NCBI RefSeq assembly: GCF_900101875.1
Contig: NZ_FNAI01000006.1
Coordinates: 248,001 to 312,000 of the forward strand
Direction of reading: 5' to 3'
Source: Mucilaginibacter pineti
GTDB taxonomy: Bacteria > Bacteroidota > Bacteroidia > Sphingobacteriales > Sphingobacteriaceae
DNA length: 64,000 nt
Part shown: in pieces, positions 15,968 through 25,199 of the stretch
Position numbering within the stretch: the stretch's first letter is position 1
Layout: every line of letters begins with the position of its first letter
Program-made: the position numbers and the translations under genes
Notes under the pieces: generated by a model
The model's database searches: none
Seen by the model: the letters and a program-made list of their open reading frames with translations, nothing else
Told to the model about the DNA's origin: nothing

Positions 15968-16046
15968 CTTATGCGTAAAAACACAAAGTTAGTTTTTTAG
16001 TTGAGCAGACTTACGGAGCCTGAAATTTTGACAGGAAAATGTAAAA

Positions 16047-16781
16047 CTACTCACCATCCCCATCTGCCACCTGCACTTTTGGCTCTTTTAAGGCCCTTAT
16101 GGTATTTACCAATTCCATCACTTCCCAGGCATCGGCCACCAAATAATTACCGCTGCGCGTGCGGCGCAGTTTAGACAGATAGGCCCCGTTACTCAACGTA
16201 GCCCCAAAATCATGCACCAGCGAACGGATATAAGTACCCTTGCTGCAAACCACCTTGAAATCAACCTCGGGCAGTTCAATACGAGTTAACTCAAACGTAC
16301 CGATGGTTACGGCACGCAGGCGGCGTTCCACTTCCTCGCCACGGCGGGCCTTTTCGTATAGCCGCTCGCCATCTATCTTAATGGCCGAGTGTGCCGGCGG
16401 ATATTGCTGAATATCACCTGTAAACTGCGCGCAATTATTACGCAGCTGCTGTTCGGTAAGTTGGCTGGTATCAAATTTATTGTCGGGCTCGGTTTCCATA
16501 TCGTACGATGGCGTGGTAGCGCCAAGCACCATGGTACCGGTATATTCTTTTTCTTCGGCCTGGAAGGTGTCTATCTGCTTGGTCATTTTTCCGGTGCAGA
16601 TAATGAGCAGACCTGTAGCCAGTGGATCAAGCGTACCTGCATGCCCCACTTTTAATTTAAGCGGCTTAAATGAATTGCGAATTTTGCCCACAACGTCAAA
16701 GCTGGTCCACCCATAGGGCTTATTAACCAGCAGCAACTGACCTTCGGCAAATTCTTCTATTTTGGAGTACGTGTTCTTCAA
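16047..16781 (-). CDS. truB: tRNA pseudouridine(55) synthase TruB
   Basis: Makes pseudouridine 55 in the T-loop of tRNAs. The 244-residue protein has LLVNKPYGWTSFDVV near residue 16 and the catalytic signature KVGHAGTLDPLATGLL near residue 43, with the active-site Asp. KGTYIRSLVHDFG near residue 180 is a further family motif. Length is slightly below the E. coli protein because the C-terminal PUA part is short. The 3' neighbour on the same strand is ribF, a frequent pairing in bacteria. Confidence 0.96.
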   Translation of the reverse strand: MKNTYSKIEEFAEGQLLLVNKPYGWTSFDVVGKIRNSFKPLKLKVGHAGTLDPLATGLLIICTGKMTKQIDTFQAEEKEYTGTMVLGATTPSYDMETEPDNKFDTSQLTEQQLRNNCAQFTGDIQQYPPAHSAIKIDGERLYEKARRGEEVERRLRAVTIGTFELTRIELPEVDFKVVCSKGTYIRSLVHDFGATLSNGAYLSKLRRTRSGNYLVADAWEVMELVNTIRALKEPKVQVADGDGE

Positions 16782-16835
16782 TTTGATAATTAAAGCGGCA
16801 AAGGTAGGGAAATTGTTGGAACCGGGGGACGCAGA

Positions 16836-17149
16836 GTTTACTCACCCGACCATCGCTACGCTTGGTCCCCCTCTCTTCGCCTTCGGCGGAAAGAGGATTG
16901 CAGGATCTGAGATTCCTTGCGCTCGTTTGTAACGAGTGCTTAAAGTGTTTTTGCGTTTACAACGCTTCGTCGCGATGCAATCGCGTAACCGTGTTAAGCA
17001 CTCGTTACAAACGAGCGCAAGTGAGATGGATAGTATTGATATTACTAAGGAGAATAGAAAGAGAAAAGGTGTCTTCACCCTCTTTCCAGCGAAGCTGAAG
17101 AGAGGGTCGCCGCACGAAGTGCCGGCGGGGTGAGTCGAACCGATAGCAG
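16836..17149 (+). repeat. Nested palindromic MITE-like element, copy A
   Basis: Non-coding element of about 310 bp. Outer ends: TTTACTCACCCGACCATCGC left and GGGTGAGTCGAAC right. Next inward on each side is a hairpin of the CTCTTCAGC-TTC-GCTGGAAAGAG type. A 26-bp inverted pair follows, beginning TTGCGCTCGTTTGTAACGAG and ending CGAGCGCAAG. The centre has a further stem, CGCGAT-GCA-ATCGCG. It matches 24899-25199 in inverse orientation, with an 8-base difference near the centre. ORFs inside are by-products of the palindromes. It sits between uppP and truB. Confidence 0.9.
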
Positions 17150-17157
17150 AGCCTCCC

Positions 17158-17955
17158 TTATAAGATCTCCAGTTGATGCCCGCTTGCAATAAGCCCGATA
17201 ATTACGGCGCCCACAATTATACGGTACCAGCCAAACAAACGAAAGCCTTTACGCTCCAAAAAGGTAATAAATGATTTAATGGCCAGCATGGCTATTATAA
17301 ACGCAATGATATTACCAATAATCAGGAATTTTATCTGATCGGCGGTAAAAAGTGGTGTGTGATCTTTATGATAATCCCATATCTCTTTTAAAGTAGCACC
17401 AAACATGGTGGGTACTGCCAGGAAAAATGAAAATTCGGCTGCGGCAGTACGGGTTAACTTTTGGCTCATACCCCCAACAATGGTAGCTGCCGAACGTGAT
17501 ACTCCCGGTATTACTGCAAGACATTGAAATAAACCCACCTTGAATGCGGTAGCATAGCCTATTTGCTGCTCTTCCTTAACATCTGTTTTGTTAAACCATT
17601 TATCAACAAATAACAATATAATACCGCCTACCAACAGGGATACTGCTACCACCATTGGGCTTTCCAGTAAGGCATCTATGTGCTTTTTAAACAATACCCC
17701 AACAATCACCGCCGGGATAACGCCCACTACCAACTTAAAGTAAAAATCTATCGACTTTAAAAATCGCTTGTAATATAAAACAACTACCGAAAGAATAGCA
17801 CCCAACTGAATAGCAACCTCAAATAGTTTTACAAAATCGTCTTTCCCTATTCCGAGTATTGAAGAGGCTATAACCATGTGCCCGGTTGATGACACGGGTA
17901 AAAATTCTGTTAAGCCTTCAATTATGGCAAGTACAATTACGTGAATTAAATTCAT
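17158..17955 (-). CDS. uppP: Undecaprenyl-diphosphate phosphatase
   Basis: Integral membrane phosphatase that recycles undecaprenyl diphosphate to the monophosphate lipid carrier for peptidoglycan and polysaccharide synthesis (UppP/BacA family). I start it at [20 protein letters not shown], giving 265 residues, the normal length; the longer frame upstream runs through a word repeat and adds no membrane segment. Family motifs are [15 protein letters not shown] at residues 13-27 and [13 protein letters not shown] near 150. Several membrane helices are visible to the C-terminus. Confidence 0.95.
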
Positions 17956-17961
17956 GGGGTA

Positions 17962-18062
17962 TTGTGGTAGGGTTGAGTGGTTGATTAGGTGAGTAGTGAA
18001 GGTTGATTGAGTAAAGAGCGTTGAATAGCTAATCAACCACTCATCAAATCAACCATTCGCCA
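17962..18062. repeat. Inverted word-repeat hairpin (GGTTGATT words)
   Basis: Left arm (about 17970-18015) carries GTGGTTGATTAGGTGAGTAG then GGTTGATTGAG. Right arm (about 18030-18060) carries CTAATCAACCACTCATC then AATCAACCATTC, the inverse with a short gap. It lies between the DUF3098 stop and the chosen uppP start, which supports the shorter uppP reading frame. Confidence 0.75.
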
Positions 18063-24898: not shown

Positions 24899-25199
24899 GG
24901 TGACTCTGCACACTGTTAGACTCACCCAGTCGGCACTTCGTGCGGCGACCCTCTCTTCAGCTTCGCTGGAAAGAGGGTAAAACCATTTTCGACTTAATTC
25001 ATAATCTTACATATCACTCACTTGCGCTCGTTTGTAACGAGTGCTTAACACGATTGCATCGCGACGAAGCGTTGTAAACGCAAAAACACTTTAAGCACTC
25101 GTTACAAACGAGCGCAAGGAATATCAAATCCTGCTATCCCTCTTTCCAGCGAAGCTGAAGAGCGGGTGGCCGAGCGCAGCGATGGTCGGGTGAGTAAAC
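24899..25199 (-). repeat. Nested palindromic MITE-like element, copy B
   Basis: About 300 bp, the inverse-orientation partner of 16836-17149. It shows the same succession: terminal GACTCACCC / GGGTGAGTAAAC, flanking CTTCAGC-TTC-GCTGGAAAG hairpins, and the inner inverted pair with TTGCGCTCGTTTGTAACGAG at 25022-25041 and its inverse at 25093-25118. The centre (25048-25092) is nearly identical to copy A; the spacer arms diverge. It lies in the gap between divergent genes, upstream of gpsA. Confidence 0.9.

Follow-up and report, generated by a model that had tools for sequence, protein, structure and literature searches.

Positions 16836-17149 of the window, by which we mean the whole stretch of 64,000 nucleotides of Mucilaginibacter pineti DNA that was analysed, hold a palindrome of about 310 bp in which inverted repeats enclose further inverted repeats, and this raises the question of what kind of element it is and which enzyme could have brought it there. 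A sequence-only reading had taken it for one element with four levels of symmetry, belonging to no named family and resembling a MITE mobilised by an enzyme encoded elsewhere, or else a structured RNA or DNA element. We found instead that the 310-bp palindrome is a REPIN nested inside an unrelated gene-less palindromic element, and that the two layers belong to two independent dispersed families. The reading we prefer, at a probability of roughly 0.7, is that both layers are gene-less mobile palindromes, the outer one derived from an element with a DUF559 nuclease gene, and that each was moved by its own enzyme.

Anatomy and copy number of the palindrome

All parts described from the sequence alone, namely the outer pair, the hairpins on both flanks, the inner pair with arms that are hairpins too and the central stem, were located, with the outer tags ACTCACCC and GGGTGAGT at 16840-16847 and 17128-17135, and the central stem CGCGAT-GCA-ATCGCG at about 16971-16985. 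The inner inverted pair, given earlier as 26 bp, was measured as 28 bp of perfect match (16916-16943 and 16994-17021), and an additional small stem, GCGTT-TAC-AACGC at about 16953-16965, was missing from the earlier list. Folded as a single strand, the whole element reached -85.4 kcal/mol, compared to -41.0 +/- 3.7 kcal/mol for dinucleotide shuffles (z -12.1, with 0 of 200 shuffles as good), and the inner part folded alone gave a z of -10.0. A search of positions 16000-18000 against Rfam gave no meaningful match, and a structured RNA family was set aside for this reason. The palindrome is placed between two genes on the reverse strand that we take, from reading the sequence, to be truB (16047-16781) and uppP (17158-18036).

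The left arm of the outer element (16839-16897, forward strand; profile match 53 bits, with hairpins that covary over 54 arms) is composed of the tag ACTCACCC, a variable hairpin GACCATCGCTACGCTTGGTC and a long hairpin CCCTCTCTTCGCC-TTC-GGCGGAAAGAGG, while the inverted right arm (17078-17137, reverse strand; 58.6 bits with the arm profile) carries the tag, the variable hairpin CGCCGGCACTTCGTGCGGCG and the long hairpin CCCTCTCTTCAGC-TTC-GCTGGAAAGAGGG. Between the arms, on the forward strand, lie the left remainder of the outer spacer (16898-16915), which resembles that of copy B, then the inner element (16916-17021) with its 28-bp outer stem and two small internal stems, and then the A+T-rich right remainder of the spacer (17022-17077). 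Just outside the left arm, GCAGAG is found at 16831-16836, and a direct copy of it at 17146-17151 lies just outside the right arm, both on the forward strand; this hexamer recurs in many outer copies and possibly marks an end or a target. Copy B of the composite occupies 24919-25195 on the reverse strand, with outer arms at 24919-24977 and 25138-25195 and the inner element at 25021-25118.

The host genome comprises 7.2 Mb in 52 contigs, and a comparison of copy A (16836-17149) with it returned 109 BLAST matches, far beyond chance and far from the only two copies genome-wide that would have pointed to a local duplication. These matches split into the outer and the inner family, with many outer copies in this genome lacking the inner part and several inner copies lacking the outer part.

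The inner layer and its transposase

The inner part has about 17 paired copies in its own genome. At C26:127.8-128.6 kb, its two halves bracket an intact gene for a protein of 190 aa, which is a REP-associated tyrosine transposase (RAYT) by the NCBIfam equivalog NF047646 (104.6 bits against a cut-off of 80) and has conserved motifs NHLH, WQ and YIHNNP. The halves of the window's inner copy match the ends of the C26 element at about 90%, and the inner copy corresponds to the left end plus the right end of that RAYT element minus the gene. RAYTs at least 60% identical are bracketed by the same hairpin, of the CTTGCGCTCGTTTGTAACGAGTG type, in 15 related genomes, including those of Mucilaginibacter, Pedobacter puniceum and Hufsiella, and below about 58% identity most RAYTs are accompanied by other hairpins.

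TnpA-REP subclass 2.6 of Bacteroidetes, described as atypical, has the motifs NH[LIV]H, WQ and YIH[QN]NP (PMC6006769). Since the GTAG tetranucleotide is absent from the 5′ hairpin foot of the inner element, whose feet read CTTGCGC and GCGCAAG, we filed the element under this subclass and not under the GTAG REPs. Judging from hairpins and motifs, the inner layer can be classified as a REPIN of TnpA-REP subclass 2.6, a kind already described, and the earlier statement that no named family fits does not apply to it. Like the published REPINs and the subclass 2.6 systems (PMC6006769, PMC3116915), it consists of an inverted hairpin pair dispersed between genes, and these hairpins also stand on either side of an HUH tyrosine transposase that has the motifs of the subclass; it differs from classic REPs in being longer and in having no GTAG tag. 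Mobilisation of REPINs in trans by a RAYT has been proposed (PMC3116915), and the inner element was probably mobilised in trans by the C26 RAYT. In the predicted reaction, the hairpin would be cut at its feet as a single strand and rejoined by the HUH tyrosine transposase acting in trans, for which the intact RAYT gene at C26, in the same genome, would be the source.

The outer layer and DUF559 nucleases

About 90 outer arms were found, each with two hairpins. In the window's own genome, the arms (query positions 1-67 and 249-324) recur as inverted pairs at about 30 places, and in most pairs they are 43-72 bp apart with nothing in between. In an arm, 59 bp long, the tag GACTCACCC is accompanied by two hairpins, one that varies in sequence and a longer one, CCCTCTCT..AGAGGG. 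Across 54 arms, 95.1% of cells were paired and 123 double changes were counted, compared to 42.8 in shuffles; these are the compensatory changes between copies that the sequence-only reading had proposed to look for. The covariation score was 0.327, against 0.118 for shuffles and at most 0.055 for slid structures, a gap that is still large although the arm structure was drawn by hand from three of the 54 rows, which somewhat favours it over the slid versions. The shape of the variable hairpin is more conserved than its sequence, which points to recognition of the folded form. When the flanks of 39 outer pairs were compared, many copies had GCAGAG at each end, the alignments with empty sites being too disturbed for boundaries to be read.

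Five DUF559 (PF04480) genes in relatives coincided with outer matches. Because these five had been noticed through the arms, the clade, here called clade O, was collected again by a protein search, which yielded 11 intact genes at least 63% identical to one of the five, together with one pseudogene, in 12 genomes of the genus. Each of the 11 intact genes is enclosed by a pair of outer arms, in orientations that differ from locus to locus. The arm profile gave no match at the remaining DUF559 loci scanned, and outer arms were also absent from 13 loci whose DUF559 proteins are mostly long. In the full elements, the DUF559 frame is the only gene between the two arms, with no DDE transposase; a DDE partner could conceivably be encoded elsewhere. 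Arms are present in 12 of 12 genus genomes that have clade O and in 13 of 24 that do not (p = 0.004, uncorrected for shared descent), so that about half of the arm-bearing genomes of the genus are without the nuclease.

The connection between full and gene-less elements is seen in a relative, G019, where a full DUF559 element is followed by two gene-less tandem copies with a period of about 197 bp (L399:1405-2335). The first of these matches positions 7-82 (92%) and 446-538 (95%) of the full element, and the middle with the nuclease gene is missing; the gene-less copies are exact internal deletions of the adjacent nuclease element, and both deletion and amplification can be traced at this locus. 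The window's outer copy is about 86% identical per arm to the G019 copies, and an uninterrupted outer copy from the window's genome is 74-75% identical to them over the full length. A search of the window's own genome found no intact clade-O gene, and for that reason the outer copies there may have lost their mobility or may depend on a different mover. This genome does contain two small DUF559 genes that stand alone; they were rejected as partners of the outer layer, being members of other clades with other palindromes.

The clade-O protein model (pLDDT 86.7) was nearest to 3hrl (Z 14.8, rmsd 2.2, 90 aligned), and it also resembled the homing endonuclease I-Bth0305I (3r3p; Z 9.5, rmsd 3.0, 90 aligned) and Vsr (1cw0; Z 8.4, rmsd 2.9, 95 aligned). 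The protein is thus predicted to have a Vsr-like PD-(D/E)XK or homing-endonuclease fold, which alone proves no activity. A role as a defence system was set aside, the PADLOC similarities to a methyl-directed REase, DpdF and a homing endonuclease being weak. We lean towards a catalytic role of the nuclease in mobility of the outer layer. The coupling of nuclease and repeat and the derivation of gene-less copies are shown; the shared fold and the gene neighbourhood are no proof that the one moves the other. The cognate nuclease would recognise the paired hairpins and the ACTCACCC tag and nick or cut there, repair or strand transfer would then copy the element to new sites, and gene-less copies would be mobilised by the nuclease in trans.

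In layout, the outer element is similar to a REP-RAYT system, with gene-less dispersed hairpin pairs and hairpin types that correspond to the enzyme clades one by one, but its partner is a nuclease of predicted Vsr fold and not an HUH enzyme. It is similar to MITEs in that gene-less copies keep both ends of the full element and lack the gene, yet the full element has only a small DUF559 gene in place of a DDE transposase, and target duplications have so far been unseen. What held of the earlier proposal of a MITE mobilised from elsewhere is that the copies are non-autonomous, dispersed and coupled to enzymes encoded elsewhere. In predicted fold, the outer partner's protein is like the EDxHD or Vsr-fold homing endonucleases such as I-Bth0305I, but it belongs to an intergenic palindromic element with gene-less satellites and not to an intron or intein. 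Short palindromic repeats of bacteria have so far been tied to HUH transposases, as in REP-RAYT systems, or to DDE insertion sequences. If the preferred reading is true, a second enzyme fold is added to REP-like systems, and DUF559, a domain of unknown function, gains a role that can be tested, with nuclease and hairpin pairs ready for a cleavage assay. It would also explain a class of unannotated repeats in Bacteroidota genomes.

The small DUF559 proteins of the genus form three main clades, clade O being 25-41% identical to the other two. Clade II genes adjoin TTCCCCTCTTGAGAGGGG palindromes and clade III genes adjoin CCCTCCC..GGGAGGG, CCTAAA..TTTAGG hairpins occur on one side of two genes that are more divergent, and small DUF559 genes from other families of the class lie between copies of a GC-rich palindrome (L190, L215, L409, L413). 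Among 34 small DUF559 genes, 25 have a repeated sequence common to both sides, in a few cases as a short match, compared to 2 of 68 control ORFs (p = 3e-14). We suggest, as a tentative proposal that is somewhat less probable than its opposite, that stand-alone DUF559 genes of Bacteroidota represent a further class of short mobile elements, with one nuclease gene of the PD-(D/E)XK type between paired hairpins, clade-specific palindromes and large populations of gene-less satellites; such a class would resemble REP-RAYT in design while relying on another enzyme fold.

Palindromes of their own, including CTCATCCCCGGCCCTTCTCCT, were also noted at the other small DUF559 clades (L107, L108, L338-L345; L190, L215, L409, L413). 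At L342, L343 and L344, the open frames of clades II and III extend upstream into the palindromes (SLPREGREGF, PLERGRER), and the repeat thus lies directly before the presumed start codon. A Caulobacter member of DUF559 is a proposed repair nuclease (PMC12907096). No link between DUF559 and palindromic repeats was found in the literature searched, most subscription journals lying outside it. Within the same literature, the outer layer had no described counterpart, so that the earlier judgement of no named family stands for this layer, and an earlier description is possible.

Nesting, mobility and rival explanations

In several relatives, both layers are missing from the uppP-truB junction, and with the copy numbers given above each layer has more than ten copies together with empty orthologous sites, the combination named in advance as support for mobility. 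In the closest relative, G022, an apparent decayed outer left arm is present at this junction and no inner element. This fits an order in which the outer element arrived first and the inner second, the G022 flanks aligning too poorly to decide against two separate arrivals. According to the preferred reading, an outer element, itself an internal-deletion derivative of a DUF559 element, would have entered the uppP/truB intergenic region first, and a REPIN, made of the two REP ends of a RAYT element without its gene, would later have landed in its spacer.

In the window's genome, an outer arm is no more than 100 bp away from 11 of the 17 inner copies, compared to about 2% of intergenic DNA, a figure that assumes 12% intergenic DNA and 45 outer elements; the inner element has therefore repeatedly landed in or beside outer elements. 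A comparison of two closer relatives, G017 and G013, gave three outer copies and three inner copies that only one of the two genomes has, which supports mobility of both layers, the alignments being too disturbed to read exact ends or target duplications of either. The nest itself is evidence that one mobile palindrome prefers landing sites in or next to another. REP-targeting insertion sequences (PMC1525189) are alike in that mobile DNA lands in palindromic repeats, as the inner element does here in outer spacers and a third element of 185 bp in an inner hairpin, but in our cases the inserted pieces are themselves short gene-less palindromes.

A different account of the outer arms, in our view rather unlikely, is that they represent REPs, of the RAYT type or another, whose mover is some other enzyme (another Y1 transposase, for instance), with the small DUF559 genes hitch-hiking as cargo or as selfish genes. 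Four further Y1_Tnp matches in the window's genome, the existence of double-hairpin REPs in TnpA-REP subclass 2.4 (PMC6006769) and the retention of arms without the nuclease in many genomes all agree with it. However, none of the five Y1_Tnp loci of that genome has outer arms, and the arms were rejected as REPs of its other Y1 transposases on this basis; moreover, a separate palindrome for each DUF559 clade is hard to square with passive cargo, and the full elements offer no other gene as mover. Still less probable is that a function in the host, such as the termination of transcription or the protection of mRNA ends between genes, is the main reason why the palindromes persist, with old dispersal and incidental enzymes. 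The intergenic position, the strong GC-rich hairpins in both directions, the T-rich stretches some bases inward of the arms and the covariation, which indicates a maintained shape, could be read in this way, but orthologous sites of related species differ in the presence of copies, internal-deletion copies adjoin a full element, and each layer is coupled to an enzyme clade.

The single element with four-level hierarchy, that is, a composite MITE spread as one unit, has the lowest probability of all, a very small one. The window's own two copies speak for it to some extent: copies A and B can be aligned over their whole length and resemble each other in the short spacer to the left of the inner element, and this pair may descend from one composite ancestor. 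As a general account it is refuted by inner-free and outer-free copies, since more than 30 outer pairs have no inner element and there are several inner copies with no outer arm nearby; furthermore, each layer has its own enzyme, and in other copies the inner element sits at different positions of the outer spacer or just outside the outer element.

Further observations were made at the polymorphic sites and around the inner copies. At two of the outer sites that differ between G017 (L381, L376) and G013 (L429, L434), G013 has palindromes of other DUF559 types instead, and it seems that different palindrome families settle at the same intergenic places. In G017, the inner copy at L388 (element 1002-1103) is flanked by a direct repeat of ~45 bp, ACATGATTTTATTATAC[AG]TTAAACAAAAAATCCCGGCCAAA, which is single in G013. 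The flanks of two inner copies (L384 and L386 of G017) are exchanged in comparison with G013:C1 near 5972100-5972700 and 6757400-6758250, as would be expected of recombination between copies. Many inner copies have yet another frequent repeat, GTCATTGCGAGG..GAAGCAATCGCA, next to them (flanks of L383, L385, L387, L388 and L391 in G017). The third dispersed palindromic element, of 185 bp (once 210 bp) with ends CACAGGTGTTGGGAAGA / TCTTCCCAACACCTGTG, was found inserted in inner hairpins at L114:2233 (reverse strand), L116:2228, L120:2369, L109:2211, L079:2148 (reverse strand) and L121:1813. These insertions share one 9-bp target, which is duplicated exactly in three of the copies (GTTACAAAC/GTTTGTAAC), and the element is a REP-targeting MITE that forms a third level of nesting.
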